Below are positions 7,271 to 57,586 of a stretch of DNA of 64,000 nucleotides, one piece after another. The notes beneath the pieces were generated by a model that worked only from the letters and a program-made list of their open reading frames with translations, searched no databases and was not told the origin of the DNA. The stretch covers positions 1 to 64,000 of IMG/VR virus record IMGVR_UViG_3300035701_000010. The stretch is one strand, 5' to 3'. Origin of the DNA: a virus. The position numbers and the translations under genes are program-made. The number at the start of each line of letters is the position of its first letter. Position 1 is the first letter of the stretch.

Positions 7271-8602
7271 CTACTTTTTGTGCGCTTTGGCTTTTAGTTT
7301 TTCCTTAATTGATTCTTTTACGTCATCATCGTCGTCCTCTTCTTCTACGACTTTCTTTTTCTTCTTGGGTTTTTCATTGTCATCATCTTCTGCTAAAGAT
7401 TGTCGAATAGATTCCCTTATTTCATCATCTTCCATATCCTTAGTAACCTTTACTTCAAGATCGTTATTTTTGATGAAAGCCTTTAGCTCTGTTCGATCAA
7501 GAGATTCTAATATATCTTTTTCTTTAGAATTATCATCGTCATCATCGTCATCATCGTCTACGACCTTCTTTTTGGGCTTGTTATCATCGTCATCGTCGTC
7601 GTCATCTTCTTCTACGACCTTCTTGGCTTTCTTCTTGGGTTTGTCGTCATCATCGTCATCATCCTCTTCTTCTACAACTTTTTTGGCTTTCTTCTTTGGT
7701 TTGTCATCATCGTCACTATCTTTATCGATTTCCGTTTCTTCTGAACAAAGCTCAACAAATTCGCACTGTTTACACTTTTTCTTTTCTTCAAACTCACCAA
7801 AACATTCAGGCAAATCACCTTCATCTTGTTTGCCTTTCCATGATTCTTCTGTTTCCTGTGGGGTGGCTGGCTTAGTAATGTCAACAAGGTCTTTAAAATG
7901 TTCTGTGATATACTTTCTTATCGCTTTGGGAATTCTCCATTTGTATTCTTCCCCCGATTCAACGCTATAAGAGATGTTACCGAACGTTTTTCCCTTCTTA
8001 GTTACCTTGAAGTTCATGCCTTCTATGAGCGAAGTTGGATCAGTGTCGTCGCTAAAGTAATCTGCAACTTCGTCAATCCGCTTGCCACTTAACGCAGCAA
8101 TTTGAAGACCCCCTGCACAAGATTCGTTCCAAGAACAGCGTTGACATTTTCCAATAGGATCACCGTCCTCATCCTTTTCTATCTCACTCCAACATTCAGG
8201 GGGTGGGTTGTCTGCTACATAGTCTCCTTTTTCCGTCTTAGTGTAAAGTGGTGTTACATCCATCATCTGAAAAACGTTGCTGATGCTCACCTTTCTTCGG
8301 TCGGCAAGAAGTCGTTTTTTCTTGTCCTTGGATTGCGAGTCTACTTTGACCATCTTGCAAGAGTAGCAGTCCTTGCCAGTCCTGGTACAGGTTCCAACGC
8401 TTTTTGCGCTGGGTCCGAGATTAAAATGTTTTCTTTGAAGTTCCCATGGAAGATCGCGTCCTTCTGCTGGTGGCATCAGTCTAGCAAAATTGGCTCCACG
8501 CTTCCATTTAAAGTAAGTTGGCCCTCCTTCCCTTGATTGTTCTCTTCTTTGCTTGTCAGCAGAAACCGCCTTGACATCTGTTTTCCCCATTTTAATCGGC
8601 AT
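7271..8602 (-). CDS. Probable gp32-like ssDNA-binding protein with acidic/basic repeat tail
   Basis: 443 residues. Residues 27-85 (FKWKRGANFARLMPPAEG, then GPSAKSVGTC, C79, C82) resemble the zinc-bearing OB-fold start of phage gp32-type proteins. Two further cysteine modules, PECW...KCQRC...SC near 135-163 and PECFG...KCKQC...LC near 268-288, follow. From residue 290 the chain becomes alternating poly-Asp and KPKKKAKKVVEEE blocks, interrupted by a folded stretch (LESLDRTELKAFIKNN). An acidic tail is usual for SSBs, but this Lys-rich alternation is not. Neighbours RecA and a possible mediator support the call. The overall assignment is inferred. Confidence 0.65.
   Translation of the reverse strand: MPIKMGKTDVKAVSADKQRREQSREGGPTYFKWKRGANFARLMPPAEGRDLPWELQRKHFNLGPSAKSVGTCTRTGKDCYSCKMVKVDSQSKDKKKRLLADRRKVSISNVFQMMDVTPLYTKTEKGDYVADNPPPECWSEIEKDEDGDPIGKCQRCSWNESCAGGLQIAALSGKRIDEVADYFSDDTDPTSLIEGMNFKVTKKGKTFGNISYSVESGEEYKWRIPKAIRKYITEHFKDLVDITKPATPQETEESWKGKQDEGDLPECFGEFEEKKKCKQCEFVELCSEETEIDKDSDDDDKPKKKAKKVVEEEDDDDDDDKPKKKAKKVVEEDDDDDDDDNKPKKKVVDDDDDDDDDNSKEKDILESLDRTELKAFIKNNDLEVKVTKDMEDDEIRESIRQSLAEDDDNEKPKKKKKVVEEEDDDDDVKESIKEKLKAKAHKK
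7320..7730 (-). repeat. Low-complexity Asp/Lys coding repeat
   Basis: Imperfect repeats of roughly 60-65 bases encode poly-Asp followed by KPKKKAKKVVEEE. The same nucleotide pattern recurs at 23580-23815 and 24290-24560 in another gene, which makes recombination between the loci possible. Confidence 0.8.
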
Positions 8603-16245: not shown

Positions 16246-17451
16246 TTATTTTTCCCATTGTTGGAGAATATATCTTTGATCGTTGTCATCAAGATCAAAA
16301 TTTTCGGCAATTAAAGCGGCTATAACATCAGTTTCGTTACAGCGTACTCTATCTCTGTGAAGAAACTCTAGGTGTGGAATATAATAGCTTGGTTCTGCAC
16401 TTTCTTGATTAAGAACAAGAAAAGCCATAGATTCTTTGTCCATTCCTTTTTTATGAAAAAGAAAAGACAACGGAATATTAAGAAAGGTAATGAAAGTTTT
16501 AGCTGATTGGGGGAGCCAATTGAAAAATTTCTGTTGTAATATCATAACTTCTTCAAAAGAAGTTCTTACTTCTGGATCAAATGCCCCCACATTAATGGCT
16601 TTTGATAGAATATCCATAGCTAGATTAACGGCGTAATAGAATACTGCCAATGAGCCAAAGCGGAAAGACCTTGGTTTGTTTTTGCCAGAGTACATATCGT
16701 ATTTGAAAGGGCAACTGATAATCTTTTTAGCTCTTTCAAGCATTGTATCATAAATATGAAAAGAAGTAGCGTTGTGATAATACGCCCCGACTTCTATTTC
16801 TAGTATGCCAGCTAAGATTTCTTGAAGAAAGGTCCACTCAAACACATTGATGTTAAAGGCTCCCCACACTATGTCATTGCTTCGCATTTTTGTAAAGCAA
16901 TGAAGGTTTTCGTCTCTGATAAGAAATTGAACGAAAATAGTGCATGGTCTATCTTTTGTGAGCAAAGTGTAATCATAATCTTCTGGTTCAGGAACCACAA
17001 TTAACGCTTCTCTAGTAAACCTATCCCTAATTAGCATCTGTTCAACGTTGTAGATTTGATCAAAATATCCAGGGGTAGGAAGACTTGGAATAAAGTTCAT
17101 AACCATTCCAGGCTCTGTAGCCATCGTTGCTCTAATTCTCGGGCCATAGGCTCCTCTCCATATCTTTAAATCATCACTATAGTCAAAACAATTCGGAAGA
17201 AAATGATGAAGGAATTCTAAATCATTTCTTCCTGCAAAAACCCAAAGGGTTTCAGCGATAGTGGCTGCGATGTTGTTATATCGATATGGCCTTGCAAGCG
17301 CACGTTTTTTGGGATTTGTAATTACGAATGAATGGTCAACGAGTTCTATTGTTTCCTTTCCCCTGACTGTAACCTCTTTTCCATTGGCCAAGAGGTATTC
17401 AAGATTATCCATAAACCCTTGGCCAACGTTATCAGAAATTGGACTATACAT
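16246..17451 (-). CDS. Thymidylate synthase family protein
   Basis: 401 residues, longer than ThyA. Recognisable ThyA-family elements are DRPCTIFVQF near 174 (catalytic Cys), TKMRSNDIVWGAFNINVFE near 192 and the ligand-region HNATSFHIYD near 230. The Asn of the GxFN element is kept, as in dUMP-specific enzymes; dCMP hydroxymethylases carry Asp there. It could still be a dUMP hydroxymethylase making a modified base. About 110 C-terminal residues have no assigned role. RBS is AAGGAGAAC-like before ATG 17451. Confidence 0.75.
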   Translation of the reverse strand: MYSPISDNVGQGFMDNLEYLLANGKEVTVRGKETIELVDHSFVITNPKKRALARPYRYNNIAATIAETLWVFAGRNDLEFLHHFLPNCFDYSDDLKIWRGAYGPRIRATMATEPGMVMNFIPSLPTPGYFDQIYNVEQMLIRDRFTREALIVVPEPEDYDYTLLTKDRPCTIFVQFLIRDENLHCFTKMRSNDIVWGAFNINVFEWTFLQEILAGILEIEVGAYYHNATSFHIYDTMLERAKKIISCPFKYDMYSGKNKPRSFRFGSLAVFYYAVNLAMDILSKAINVGAFDPEVRTSFEEVMILQQKFFNWLPQSAKTFITFLNIPLSFLFHKKGMDKESMAFLVLNQESAEPSYYIPHLEFLHRDRVRCNETDVIAALIAENFDLDDNDQRYILQQWEK

Positions 17452-23573: not shown

Positions 23574-24719
23574 TTAGTCGTCATCCTCTTCTTCAACTAC
23601 TTTTTTGGCTTTCTTCTTTGGTTTGTCATCATCATCATCGTCGTCATCTTCTACGACTTTTTTGGCTTTCTTCTTGGGTTTCTCATCCTCGTCATCATCC
23701 TCTTCAACTACTTTCTTCTTCTTAGGCTTATCGTCATCATCGTCCTCTTCTTCTTCTACGACTTTTTTGGCTTTCTTCTTGGGCTTGTCGTCATCGTCGT
23801 CGTCATCGTCGTCATCCTTCGCCTTGCCCTTTTTGGCCTTTTCTTGAAGTTTTTCAGCGAGGGCTTTGCCTTTGGCCTTTCGTTCCTTGGAGGCTTCGGT
23901 GGCTGCTTTCAAAGCAACCTTGATCATCTTGCCAAAGTTTTCTGGAAGTTCTTTTTCAAAAGCAAAGGCGGCGTACCCATCGTAAGGCTCTTTAGCTTTC
24001 TGCAGCTTTCCGAAAGGAACTGTTCCCTTCACTTCAAGCTCTTTCGGAGTCAATCTGTTAAAGAGAACAGCTAGACCAGACTCTGCACCTTTGGCTTTCA
24101 CGATGGACAGTACGATCACATTGTTTTGTTTGAAGATTGTGATAGAGGTTTTGTGGGTTACTTCGAGGTCGTAATCTTCAGCAATTTTGTCAACGGCTTT
24201 CTTGTACTTGATGGGGATGATGCCATTGTCGATGACGTCGGTACGAGTCTTTTTAAAAGACTTCATCTCTTTTGCGACCTTCTTCTTGGGCTTGTCATCA
24301 TCGTCATCGTCGTCGTCATCTTCTTCTACGACTTTCTTGGCTTTCTTCTTGGGTTTGTCATCATCATCGTCATCATCCTCTTCTTCTACGACTTTTTTGG
24401 CTTTCTTCTTGGGCTTGTCATCATCGTCATCGTCGTCGTCATCTTCTTCTACGACTTTCTTGGCTTTCTTCTTGGGTTTGTCATCGTCATCATCATCCTC
24501 TTCTTCTACGACTTTCTTCTTTGGCTTGTCATCGTCGTCATCGTCGTCATCGGCCTTTATTTTCTTGGCCGCAACTTTGGCGCATTTTGAATCTTCATCA
24601 CCGCCAAAGGCACATGCTTCCGTGCAGTCATCTTCATCTGCATCATACATTCCGAAGCACTGAGGTTTCTTCTCTTCCTTCTCTTCCTTGTCTTTTTTCT
24701 TGTCCTTGTCCTTAGCCAT
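23574..24719 (-). CDS. Repeat-tailed protein with CFG-Cys module
   Basis: 381 residues from ATG 24719 behind AGGAGGGAACAACA. Near residue 20 a PQCFGMYDADEDDC...C...C module resembles the cysteine modules of the SSB-like protein at 7271. Blocks of poly-Asp followed by KPKKKAKKVVEEE flank a central folded domain of about 150 residues (DVIDNGIIPIKYKKAVDKIA to KALAEKLQEKAK) and end the protein. It has its own promoter, 5' hairpin and terminator, suggesting high and separate expression. A nucleic-acid or scaffold role is possible; function is unknown. Confidence 0.65.
   Translation of the reverse strand: MAKDKDKKKDKEEKEEKKPQCFGMYDADEDDCTEACAFGGDEDSKCAKVAAKKIKADDDDDDDDKPKKKVVEEEDDDDDDKPKKKAKKVVEEDDDDDDDDDKPKKKAKKVVEEEDDDDDDDKPKKKAKKVVEEDDDDDDDDDKPKKKVAKEMKSFKKTRTDVIDNGIIPIKYKKAVDKIAEDYDLEVTHKTSITIFKQNNVIVLSIVKAKGAESGLAVLFNRLTPKELEVKGTVPFGKLQKAKEPYDGYAAFAFEKELPENFGKMIKVALKAATEASKERKAKGKALAEKLQEKAKKGKAKDDDDDDDDDDKPKKKAKKVVEEEEDDDDDKPKKKKVVEEDDDEDEKPKKKAKKVVEDDDDDDDDKPKKKAKKVVEEEDDD
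24290..24560 (-). repeat. Tandem Asp/Lys coding repeat
   Basis: Four to five near-identical units of about 60-66 bases encode poly-Asp plus KPKKKAKKVVEEE. A second set lies at about 23580-23815. The units closely match those in the SSB-like gene near 7.3-7.7 kb. Confidence 0.85.
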
Positions 24720-30428: not shown

Positions 30429-30682
30429 TATAACTCCCTATCCTTAAATCGTTCATCGATAGCAAGAGAAACTTGTTCTCTAATTAAATTTTTAATGGTT
30501 TTTTCACGAAAACAAATTGACAACTCAATAATTATAATTAATTCTGCAAGCGAAACATCTGTTTCAGACTGAGGATATTCGCCACGCATCCATTTGCTTT
30601 GACATGCTTTTTCTTTGGCAAGTTGAAACCGCAATGATTTTATTTGTTTTCCAATATTTTTCCAGGAGGTTACCTCATTCAT
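30428..30682 (-). CDS. Hypothetical protein, 84 aa
   Basis: Starts MNEVTSWKNIGKQIKSLRFQ; helical with a hydrophobic centre (ELIIIIELSI). Both ends overlap neighbouring genes by a few bases, including one shared base with the helicase-loader start, so it may be a loader partner. No family recognised. Confidence 0.55.
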   Translation of the reverse strand: MNEVTSWKNIGKQIKSLRFQLAKEKACQSKWMRGEYPQSETDVSLAELIIIIELSICFREKTIKNLIREQVSLAIDERFKDREL

Positions 30683-31365
30683 TTCTTAGGCACTCCCGGC
30701 ATGGTGAGGAACCATTTTCGTACTTCTTTTGTCCAATGATTAGCACATCCTTCTGCTTCATCGTCCTCATAGAACCAAGGAAACTTGTCAACCCACTCCT
30801 CCCACTCCTTGCGTGTGGGCTTCGGTGGCTCCTGTTTGATGGTTCTTGTAGCCTTGTCATAAACCAATCGGCTGTTACCAGACTTTCGTTCAGGCTGCGG
30901 TGGCGGAAGATGAGAATCAATCATCGTTCCAAATTCATCTGACTCCTTCCCATGCATCTTGAGCCAGAGGACGGGGTCCATTGGAAAAGGCTGCTCATTC
31001 TCCGTGCCATCAGGGACAATGGTTCCACGTGTTCGCCTAATATCCTCTGGACTTGGCTGCTCCTTCTCCGTGCCTTTCTTGTCATAATTATCCTTGCAGA
31101 TTTTGCACGAAGGATCACTGTTTCCAGCAAAACATACACCTTGTTCTAAAACAGCAGGGCATGGCCTATTTTCTAGTGTCTTAGGTTGCTCCTTCTCCGT
31201 ACCGTGGAGTAGAATGTCAATGGCTCTGTCCAGCCTGTCAGGATAATCCCTAGAAAGGATATCCCAAATAGCCGGAAGTCGCTTCTTCAACTCGGACTCG
31301 GTGAATTCAATTACTTCAAACACTGAGTTTTGAGTTATTTCCAACCTAAACATTCTATCTCCCAT
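30679..31365 (-). CDS. Hypothetical protein with GTEKEQP repeats
   Basis: 228 residues. Three spaced copies of GTE(K/N)EQP separate short segments, one of which carries a Cys cluster (ENRPCPAVLEQGVCFAG, CKICKDN) typical of small metal sites. The C-terminal part is Trp-rich (EWVDKFPWFYEDD). It looks like a modular linker-rich protein. No function assigned. Confidence 0.55.
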   Translation of the reverse strand: MGDRMFRLEITQNSVFEVIEFTESELKKRLPAIWDILSRDYPDRLDRAIDILLHGTEKEQPKTLENRPCPAVLEQGVCFAGNSDPSCKICKDNYDKKGTEKEQPSPEDIRRTRGTIVPDGTENEQPFPMDPVLWLKMHGKESDEFGTMIDSHLPPPQPERKSGNSRLVYDKATRTIKQEPPKPTRKEWEEWVDKFPWFYEDDEAEGCANHWTKEVRKWFLTMPGVPKK

Positions 31366-31366
31366 G

Positions 31367-31516
31367 TCACTCCTCCTCTGCTACCTCATAAGCCGCATCA
31401 CGTTCTTCTGGAGACAAATCATAAAAATTATCTACTCCGGCTCGCTCACAGGCTGTCTCCGTTATGACTGCTCTCTCATCTGGATGTAAGTCCCAAAAAC
31501 CGTGATTGACTTTCAT
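31367..31516 (-). CDS. Hypothetical protein, 49 aa
   Basis: Start at ATG 31516 behind CAAAGGAGGAGTAAA. Begins MKVNHGFWDLHPDERAVITE and contains DLSPEERDAAYEVAEEE, an acidic helical tail. The preceding gene ends one base before its start. Unknown function. Confidence 0.55.
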   Translation of the reverse strand: MKVNHGFWDLHPDERAVITETACERAGVDNFYDLSPEERDAAYEVAEEE

Positions 31517-31517
31517 T

Positions 31518-31691
31518 TTACTCCTCCTTTGAGTTATCTTTGATAACTGAGTTATCTTTGATAACCTTTGTGGCAAGTTTCACTAAACCCATCTGCTCCT
31601 TTATTTGTTTTCGTAGGCGTTTTATTTCTGAAGCTGGAACGTAGCCCAATCTTGGATGGTAGTCATTGATTCCGAGTTTCTTTAACTTCAT
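31518..31691 (-). CDS. Small protein, 57 aa, with VIKDNS tandem repeat
   Basis: ATG at 31691 behind GAGGAGTGACA. A basic protein starting MKLKKLGINDYHPRLGYVP. Its C-terminus holds two copies of VIKDNS, encoded by two tandem GTTATCAAAGATAAC palindromes. Function unknown. Confidence 0.5.
   Translation of the reverse strand: MKLKKLGINDYHPRLGYVPASEIKRLRKQIKEQMGLVKLATKVIKDNSVIKDNSKEE
31535..31570 (-). repeat. Tandem palindromes
   Basis: Two copies of the 15-bp palindrome GTTATC-NNN-GATAAC in direct tandem. They are translated as VIKDNSVIKDNS, but their symmetry would also suit a dimeric repressor site just upstream of the next ribosome binding site. Confidence 0.55.
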
Positions 31692-31812
31692 TGTCACTCC
31701 TCATACGTATTTGTGCAGCAGCTTGTATAGCCGCCACAACTGCTTCCATCAACGCTTCTATGATACGCTGTTCAGCTTTCCACTGCTGTTCTCTCTTTGT
31801 TAGTCCAAACAT
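31663..31812 (-). CDS. Small helical protein, 49 aa
   Basis: ATG at 31812 behind GGAGGAGTAACA. Starts MFGLTKREQQWKAEQRIIEA with an Ala-rich amphipathic helix. It overlaps both neighbouring genes, by 41 and 29 bases. Unknown function. Confidence 0.45.
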   Translation of the reverse strand: MFGLTKREQQWKAEQRIIEALMEAVVAAIQAAAQIRMRSDNEVKETRNQ

Positions 31813-32002
31813 TGTTACTCCTCCTTATCTTGTCATATTCTTCCCGCCTATTTGGTCCTATAGAAAACGCATACTTATGCTGTATCCTATGGATTACTGA
31901 TCCGCTTGCACCTGTCCTTTCCTCTATATGGTATGGGTTTACGCCTTGCTCAAGGAGTTGCTTGATCCTGAGTTCCCTGGCTTCTATCTCTTTTTTTCGC
32001 AT
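31772..32002 (-). CDS. Small helix-turn-helix protein
   Basis: 76 residues. RIKQLLEQGVNPYHIEERTGASGSVIHRIQHKY is a plausible helix-turn-helix of the homeodomain-like kind. AAGGGAAGAGT precedes the ATG. It could be a regulator; the 3' end overlaps the next small gene by 41 bases. Confidence 0.5.
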   Translation of the reverse strand: MRKKEIEARELRIKQLLEQGVNPYHIEERTGASGSVIHRIQHKYAFSIGPNRREEYDKIRRSNNVWTNKERTAVES

Positions 32003-32032
32003 ACTCTTCCCTTAGGTTGTGGCGGCTTTCGC

Positions 32033-32251
32033 CTAATTATCCCACGCCCCTAGCTGCTTGAGAAATACCGAATACTTTTCCCCGCAGTCGCCACATAGTT
32101 TTCTTGCGTATCTGTGCCAGAAAGGATAACGGCCAACATAGGTATTTGCCCCACACCCGCAACAGATCGTTCCAGCTCTATTTTTCAAAAAATCTTCATC
32201 TGATTTCAGTATTTGTTCCAGAAAAGAAATAACAACTGGTACTTGCATCAT
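32033..32251 (-). CDS. Zinc-ribbon protein, 72 aa
   Basis: TICCGCGANTYVGRYPF and LCGDCGEKYSV supply two CxxC knuckles about 22 residues apart, a compact zinc ribbon. GGAGGGAC precedes ATG 32251. Its start is just downstream of the structured RNA region, so it is probably the first protein translated after it. Confidence 0.65.
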   Translation of the reverse strand: MMQVPVVISFLEQILKSDEDFLKNRAGTICCGCGANTYVGRYPFWHRYARKLCGDCGEKYSVFLKQLGAWDN

Positions 32252-32281
32252 GTCCCTCCACCGCCACGAATATTGGGGCTT

Positions 32282-32505
32282 GGGGTGGGCCTCTTCCCCG
32301 GATTAAGCAGAATCACCGTCTTTACCGACCTGTCTAGCAGATCGTCCTCTCTGCCCCACCCCTCACCCCGTAAGGCTTGTGGGTTTCACTGCCCTTGCGA
32401 AGCTATTCAGCGTTCGTAGGGTTCTTACGTTAATCCCCACAAGCATCCCGCAGGTCGGTTTGCACGTATTCCGACTTTCGTATGCTCACCCCTTTTCGGG
32501 CTGCG
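32282..32505 (-). ncRNA. Candidate structured noncoding RNA with pseudoknot
   Basis: A GC-rich 220-base gap that stands out from the AT-rich surroundings. Read on the minus strand, ACCGACCTG (32459-32451) can pair with CAGGTCGGT (32332-32324), enclosing GCTTGTGGG with CCCACAAGC (32443-32435 with 32383-32375). GGGGTGGG (near 32361-32354) pairs with CCCACCCC (32289-32282), and GCAGA with TCTGC makes a local hairpin. The first and third long pairings cross, giving a pseudoknot. No open frame fills it. It resembles the ornate RNAs known in phages in style only; no named family is assigned. The 5' boundary is uncertain. Confidence 0.6.
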
Positions 32506-32510
32506 AGAAT

Positions 32511-33062
32511 TTATAAATGCTTATTAATTCGTTGTTTTACTTCCTCTGACATCAATGGATATCTGACAATTTTATCTTTTATTCCCAAGGTCTGGGCCTT
32601 AAGAGAGGTTTTGATTCCCCAAACCTGATGGTAATCATCTGGCCATCTCGAGTTCTTACGTCGCCATAAAAGGGGACGGGTAGCAATAAACCGTGCGAAG
32701 CGTTCGATATTAAAATCGCTGCATAAGAACCCAACAAAATTGCTATAGTCCCTTTGCCGCTTTTGCCAATGTAAATATTGATAGGTAGAAAAGTAGACAA
32801 AAGCACTATAGAAATTGATTGGAATATGATAAACGTTTTCAAGTTCTAATCGAAATTTTTTAAGTCTAATCAAATGCCATTTCGGCCAGAAACGAACCTT
32901 GGTGGCTTCATAGACCAAAGTAAGAAGCCAATTGTTTTTGTAGAGGGTAAACTTTTTCTTTCTGAGAAACTTTTTCTTTTCAGCCTCTCTCATCAATTTC
33001 CAGCGCATCATGGTTTTACGATTGTCATAAATGGTTTCTTTTTTGACTGGTGTTCGCTTCAT
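32511..33062 (-). CDS. Basic hypothetical protein, 183 aa
   Basis: Very basic, with a KKKFLRKKKFTLYK N-terminal segment and several aromatic residues (FYSAFVYFSTYQYLHW). No motif is recognised. It may bind nucleic acid. It overlaps the UvsW-like gene end by four bases. Confidence 0.6.
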   Translation of the reverse strand: MKRTPVKKETIYDNRKTMMRWKLMREAEKKKFLRKKKFTLYKNNWLLTLVYEATKVRFWPKWHLIRLKKFRLELENVYHIPINFYSAFVYFSTYQYLHWQKRQRDYSNFVGFLCSDFNIERFARFIATRPLLWRRKNSRWPDDYHQVWGIKTSLKAQTLGIKDKIVRYPLMSEEVKQRINKHL

Positions 33063-57005: not shown

Positions 57006-57206
57006 CTAGCCCTGATACTTCGGGTCAGGGTTTGGAATTTCAGTCGCGCTTAAGTAATAGATCTTCTTCAATTCCTCCTTTGTCTCACAAGAATAGAATG
57101 TAATGGGGACCCACTCGTCATCCAAATTCGGCTGAATATGACTAGTCGAAAAGAAGAAACGTTCTGTTTCTTCGGAACCACCATCCGCAAAAACAATCAA
57201 TCTCAT
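57006..57206 (-). CDS. Hypothetical protein, 66 aa
   Basis: Start at ATG 57206 behind AAAGGAGAAGTAAG, far better than upstream starts. Begins MRLIVFADGGSEETERFFFS; beta/alpha with an acidic end. Unknown function. Confidence 0.55.
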   Translation of the reverse strand: MRLIVFADGGSEETERFFFSTSHIQPNLDDEWVPITFYSCETKEELKKIYYLSATEIPNPDPKYQG

Positions 57207-57220
57207 CTTACTTCTCCTTT

Positions 57221-57586
57221 CTATGCAAGGTTCACCTTGGTGTGACACCCTGCTCCTTTCTTTCTCCAAATGAGTTTGCTCGCTACCCATTCCAAAAGGC
57301 GATAGTAGAGTTTGTACCGCCCCCTGAAAGGTCCGTATGTTTGACACATGAGCTCTGTAAGGTCCAACAGAGCCATCTCCATACTCTCTTCGAGACTCTG
57401 TTGGTCGTCAGACCAGAGTGGCTTATTGGGATCAGGATCTTTCCATGCATCTGTTTCCCACGGGTCTTTGGTTTTCAAAAATTGGGCGATGGCTTCATCC
57501 CGCTCTTCCTCGCTGATGAGCCCGCTTAGACAGGCCCAATCCGCGTCAATCCGTTCTCCACCTGGATCCAATCCAATTCTTCCCAT
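57221..57586 (-). CDS. Hypothetical protein, 121 aa
   Basis: Begins MGRIGLDPGGERIDADWACL. An acidic N-terminal half (KDPWETDAWKDPDPNKP) and a basic C-terminal half (KLYYRLLEWVASKLIWRKKG). No motif recognised; GGAGGATAAAG precedes the ATG. Confidence 0.55.
   Translation of the reverse strand: MGRIGLDPGGERIDADWACLSGLISEEERDEAIAQFLKTKDPWETDAWKDPDPNKPLWSDDQQSLEESMEMALLDLTELMCQTYGPFRGRYKLYYRLLEWVASKLIWRKKGAGCHTKVNLA

Follow-up and report, generated by a model that had tools for sequence, protein, structure and literature searches.

A pseudoknot-capable candidate leader RNA at one end of a mosaic insert in an AT-rich phage genome

Phage genomes are mosaic, and short gene-boundary sequences are known as sites at which they exchange DNA. 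GOLLD and ROOL are phage-encoded, structured, pseudoknotted and noncoding RNAs of several hundred nucleotides, many GOLLD RNAs being longer than 800 nt, and both are often located near tRNA islands (PMC12286853). Other described systems are the 5′ leaders and riboswitches that sequester a Shine-Dalgarno sequence, and the orphan candidates of the GC-IGR surveys, in which the GC-rich gaps of AT-rich genomes were found to be enriched in structured RNAs (PMC6429828). The locus we describe here resembles each of these in part. The candidate would share the general character of GOLLD and ROOL, but it is a single RNA of ~250 nt with no tRNA nearby. Like the Shine-Dalgarno-sequestering leaders, it stands before a start codon and has an arm predicted to pair either with an upstream partner or around the Shine-Dalgarno, but it matches no known aptamer class and the gene downstream is an orphan Zn ribbon. 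Like the orphans of the GC-IGR surveys, it has stable stems and fills a long gap that is rich in GC while the genome is AT-rich, but the candidates of those surveys rest on several homologs whereas ours is one sequence. Lastly, as at gene-boundary exchange sites, a 37-nt block at the gene start is common to phages that are otherwise unrelated, each with its own gene behind it, although only two phages are concerned here and recombination is presumed.

The candidate is encoded in an environmental viral record of 97,656 bases with 40% GC (IMGVR_UViG_3300035701_000010), the first 64,000 nucleotides of which form the window analyzed here; nearly all genes, up to ~72 kb of the record, are on the minus strand. 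It occupies a 253-nt noncoding gap (32258..32510, minus strand, with RNA position 1 at 32510) between a 183-aa core gene upstream (32511..33062, minus strand) and a 72-aa CxxC...CxxC Zn-ribbon-like ORF (32033..32251, minus strand), which is the gene that a leader would serve. The surrounding same-strand gene array is tightly packed, and the gap immediately precedes a start codon that has a good Shine-Dalgarno. A first-pass annotation had proposed that the gap holds no competing gene and contrasts with its surroundings in base composition, and both points stood: the ORF listing has no minus-strand ORF of at least 40 aa in the gap, the plus-strand ORFs that cross it are short and unsupported, and its GC content of 0.56 (versus a genome mean of 0.40) is the highest among the ~30 gaps of at least 150 nt in a rough gene set. 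We found no promoter-like site close upstream of the gap and no terminator, including an intrinsic terminator at the ends of the candidate.

Several other features of the genome may be recorded here. Two genes of the window (7321-7715 and 23577-24551) contain long related low-complexity repeats, whose identity reaches 93% over 168 bp. A TET-associated glycosyltransferase (PF20691; 21835-22641) and a thymidylate-synthase-like gene (16246-17451) together suggest that the phage DNA is modified. Tandem-like repeats of ~50 nt (AGAATTTCAGAAAGGCGGAGTAGTC) run up to the last base of the record (L009:13990-14656, record positions 96990-97656), and the contig therefore probably stops within a repeat.

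The minus strand of the gap can form three helices of perfect Watson-Crick pairing. Helix C (9 bp) joins ACCGACCUG (32451..32459, RNA 52-60) to CAGGUCGGU (32324..32332, RNA 179-187); helix A (9 bp) joins GCUUGUGGG (32436..32444, RNA 67-75) to CCCACAAGC (32375..32383, RNA 128-136); and helix B (8 bp) joins GGGGUGGG (32355..32362, RNA 149-156) to CCCACCCC (32282..32289, RNA 222-229). Helix A is nested in helix C and has a further stem-loop within it (CCCU..CGAA..GCU / AGC..UUCG..AGGG, 32392..32421, minus strand) that appears in both the MFE and centroid structures, whereas helix B crosses helix C. Thus three pairs of 9, 9 and 8 bp with a local hairpin, two of the pairings crossing so that a pseudoknot can form, were recovered just as the first-pass annotation had described them. 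Two smaller minus-strand elements accompany them: a hairpin, GCAGA/UCUGC (32337..32354), that directly follows the 5′ arm of helix B on its 3′ side and is predicted in constrained folds with helix C enforced, and a 5′ hairpin, CUCGC..CCC/GGG..GUGAG (32485..32507), in the MFE of the 5′ end. Two further matches, CGUAAG/CUUACG (RNA 82-87/137-142) and GGAUUAA/UUAAUCC (RNA 75-81/205-211), were dropped as short enough to arise by chance. Each 9-bp arm has a single occurrence in the genome; for the 5′ arm of helix C, the 9-mer and its complement each occur once in the 97.7-kb record.

How far does this structure exceed what chance would provide? At least two Watson-Crick stems of at least 9 bp were obtained in 5 of 1000 dinucleotide shuffles, and at least three of at least 8 bp in 4 of 1000. 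A crossing pair equally strong arose in 2 of 2000 composition-preserving shuffles, and one with a third disjoint helix in none of the 2000; the crossing-pair score was, however, picked post hoc with the sequence already known, and ~30 gaps were candidates for selection. Compared with 975 genome windows of 253 nt, the gap was matched by no other in the hydrogen bonds of its long stems, and three stems of at least 8 bp were present in 12 of them. On either strand the whole gap has a mildly low folding energy (z -1.99 for the minus strand and -2.32 for the plus strand), so that energy does not settle the choice of strand; we infer the minus strand from the direction of the operon, nothing else in the sequence picking one. 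Locally, the hairpin of helix A stands out most strongly (z -3.1). Because the score was chosen post hoc and any of ~30 gaps could have been picked, we grade the evidence for structure, after correction for that number, as moderate. A fold of C and A with B free has an energy of -79.2 kcal/mol; addition of the B duplex, less an estimated pseudoknot penalty, brings it close to the MFE of -92.7 kcal/mol, so that the pseudoknotted fold is estimated to be roughly level with the nested one.

Known RNA families do not account for the gap. A cmscan of 4227 Rfam families gave no match to it at the gathering threshold, and at E 10 the only match in the gap was a chance one to ZEB2_AS1_3 (E 7.8), which agrees with the view of the first-pass annotation, which had asked for an Rfam run, that no named class fits. 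Its comparison with GOLLD and ROOL did not hold up: these RNAs are several times larger, the Rfam covariance models of GOLLD and ROOL, as well as raiA and OLE, gave no match to the gap, and the window contains neither tRNA nor tmRNA. No model matched for a tmRNA, RNase P RNA or a group I or II intron, and the record lacks an RT; a group I intron had been considered for a similar P3/P7-like crossing, and inspection by eye revealed no recognizable P7. We also dropped RNase P, attC, retron and group II elements, either on such inspection or because RT is absent. No model match was obtained for an IscB guide (HEARO) RNA, and the downstream gene is the 72-aa Zn ribbon; the record holds no TnpB (PF07282), which argues against a TnpB guide RNA.

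Searches for homologs were equally empty. Blastn of the gap against 50,697 phages returned one 27-nt chance match within a coding gene, and against plasmids no match. An IMG/VR pattern scan with GTGAAACCCACAAGCC gave four matches, all by chance, three of them clearly in reading frames and none of the four with flanking similarity. Overall, no homolog of the RNA was found in phages, plasmids, two IMG/VR pattern scans and 11 related or linked viral records, and a covariance model of the 136-nt core searched against 12 viral records found itself only. Protein queries gave no match either, whether in IMG/VR single-protein searches (the 183-aa, helicase and Pol III proteins) or in GTDB scans (the 72-aa protein and the 228/267-aa alignment). 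The RNA is thus an orphan across all databases searched, and the suggestion of a new or diverged RNA family was not borne out by these viral, phage, plasmid and related-phage searches.

The setting of the gap became clearer on comparison with a 114,591-base relative, G010, reached through an alignment of the terminase (58% identical). G010 keeps the order of the replication cluster, namely ligase, sigma-like factor, SF2 helicase (42-44% identical), the 183-aa homolog (37%), DnaC-like (50%), UDG (45%), DnaB-like (58%) and primase-like (43%) genes. In G010 the 183-aa homolog and the beginning of the DnaC-like gene share 4 bases, so that the homolog of the next core gene, the DnaC-like helicase loader of our phage (29640..30428, minus strand), follows directly. 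In the window these two genes are separated by a segment of 2,082 bases (30429..32510, minus strand) that carries small orphan genes and is absent from the syntenic G010 site. The RNA candidate forms the upstream end of this 2.08-kb segment, in which GC is 0.43 overall and 0.56 in the gap, versus ~0.37 on both sides. The simplest reading is that the segment was inserted in the lineage of the window, and its loss in G010 is possible.

Parts of the same segment recur, differently arranged, in a second phage, G001 (IMGVR_UViG_3300032894_000334, 68,760 bases), which is otherwise unrelated, with only one further small protein match beyond them. Four near-identical DNA blocks of 37 to 233 bp are common to the two. 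A 233-bp block with the 72-aa gene (32025..32257, minus strand) is 95.7% identical to G001 57189-57421, the gene copy itself being 94% identical, and a 37-nt ribosome-binding-site block ending in the Shine-Dalgarno (GGTGGAGG; 32255..32291, minus strand) is 97% identical to G001 1304-1339. Two more, of 78 bp (30988-31065, 93.6% identical) and 37 bp (30795-30831, 100% identical), lie inside a 228/267-aa protein whose two versions are 36-40% identical overall. In the 228-aa ORF there are also three in-frame imperfect 40-nt repeats encoding GTE(K/N)EQP (30969-31203), with similar motifs in the G001 homolog. A weak relative of the 72-aa Zn ribbon (48% over 37 aa) occurs in another virus (L003:4001-4123), in a record that has no similar RNA.

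The 37-nt block carries the Shine-Dalgarno at one end and the 3′ arm of helix B at the other. In G001 it precedes a different gene, of 58 aa, and the 72-aa gene is ~56 kb away with other sequence upstream; identity between the phages breaks exactly at the Shine-Dalgarno. The G001 copy of the arm has one C fewer, and none of GGGGTGGG, GGGTGGG and GGGTGG, which would be its partner in helix B, is found in the 461 nt upstream of the block. Helix B is therefore not conserved in G001, because the block is used there without its partner arm, and the remainder of the RNA is missing there rather than altered. The 3′ arm of helix B appears to lead an existence of its own, apart from the leader.

We tentatively favor, as one possible reading among several, a structured 5′ leader that would act in cis on an accessory operon acquired recently. 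The leader would be transcribed on the minus strand within an early transcript and would carry the stable helix A hairpin, while the long-range helices C and B could exist together only as a pseudoknot and would otherwise compete. Without helix B, CCCACCCC would become available for pairing around the Shine-Dalgarno of the Zn-ribbon gene; with helix B formed, the Shine-Dalgarno would be less paired, and the state of the upstream fold would thus control translation of the 72-aa gene. In predicted folds, pairing of the Shine-Dalgarno bases (32259-32255) falls to ~0.5 once helix B forms, from values that lie mostly at ~0.77-0.93 (one base 0.07) if helix B is blocked or only helix C is present. 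The 37-nt block folded alone is also predicted to pair its CCACC-type bases around the Shine-Dalgarno, at ~0.9 over most bases. That it would hide the Shine-Dalgarno alone and is conserved before another gene in G001 suggests a portable translation-start unit.

Several considerations favor a leader: a position in a packed same-strand array, before a start codon whose Shine-Dalgarno is good and could, in predicted folds, be masked by arms in a candidate 5′ UTR; three strong helices beyond those of shuffles; the predicted shift of Shine-Dalgarno pairing with helix B; and the apparent portability of the 37-nt block. We also counted in its favor the enrichment of structured RNAs in GC-rich gaps of AT-rich genomes (PMC6429828). 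It is weakened by the lack of a homolog, and hence of covariation, by the use of the 37-nt block in G001 without the rest of the leader, by a whole-ensemble energy of only z -2 with no clear energetic advantage of the pseudoknot over the nested fold, by a Shine-Dalgarno effect that is a modest model result, and by the want of a promoter-like site close upstream and of a terminator. The candidate is thus an orphan of leader type, unproven as a new RNA class, whose transcription, strand, switching, any ligand and any function are presumed.

A serious rival, and one that could quite possibly be correct, is that there is no RNA function at all: the gap would be imported GC-rich DNA at the border of a mosaic insert, long complementary words come about more readily in such DNA, and a conspicuous gap would have been singled out of many. 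That the segment is foreign to the syntenic G010, that the 3′ end of the gap is a block common to G001 apart from the rest, that the two strands give a folding z of only about -2, that 12 of 975 genome windows have three such stems, and that neither homolog nor covariation was found all suit such an origin. The crossing pair with its third helix, unmatched in 2000 composition-matched shuffles, argues against it, as do the uniqueness of each 9-bp arm and the standing of the gap as the most GC-rich, without an ORF.

Might the segment instead encode a discrete trans-acting noncoding RNA of ~200-250 nt with a pseudoknot core? Its topology with a nested hairpin and its GC-rich composition would fit, and the 72-aa gene does not require it, the G001 copy having different upstream sequence. 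However, its ends have neither a promoter-like site nor an intrinsic terminator, and it has no Rfam match, no tRNA neighbors and no relatives; we consider this doubtful. Unlikely, too, is an element acting as DNA through its inverted repeats, whether it marks where a mobile or recombining module ends or joins, or serves as a site of replication or recombination. It would suit a position at one boundary of the 2.08-kb insert, adjoining replication genes (helicase, DnaC-like, UDG, DnaB-like), and exchange at short gene-boundary sequences would be expected to produce the abrupt break of G001 identity at the Shine-Dalgarno. However, searches revealed no transposase, integrase, RT or TnpB with the segment, the stretches compared at its two ends show no direct repeat of 7-14 bp flanking the insert, and GC skew does not switch at the gap. 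The most ambitious extension of the leader treats it as a new class of small phage RNA, borne on a mobile accessory operon, in which a pseudoknot senses a signal and sets Zn-ribbon translation via the portable 37-nt ribosome-binding-site hairpin; we regard this as distinctly unlikely.

What our analysis establishes more firmly is the mosaic setting: the conserved replication cluster contains a 2.08-kb insert, and this insert has near-identical blocks, down to 37 bp, in common with an otherwise unrelated phage. A real leader would amount to an orphan structured RNA moving between unrelated phages with a small set of accessory genes, and it would offer a simple case of translation control in which a pseudoknot is set against the masking of a Shine-Dalgarno.
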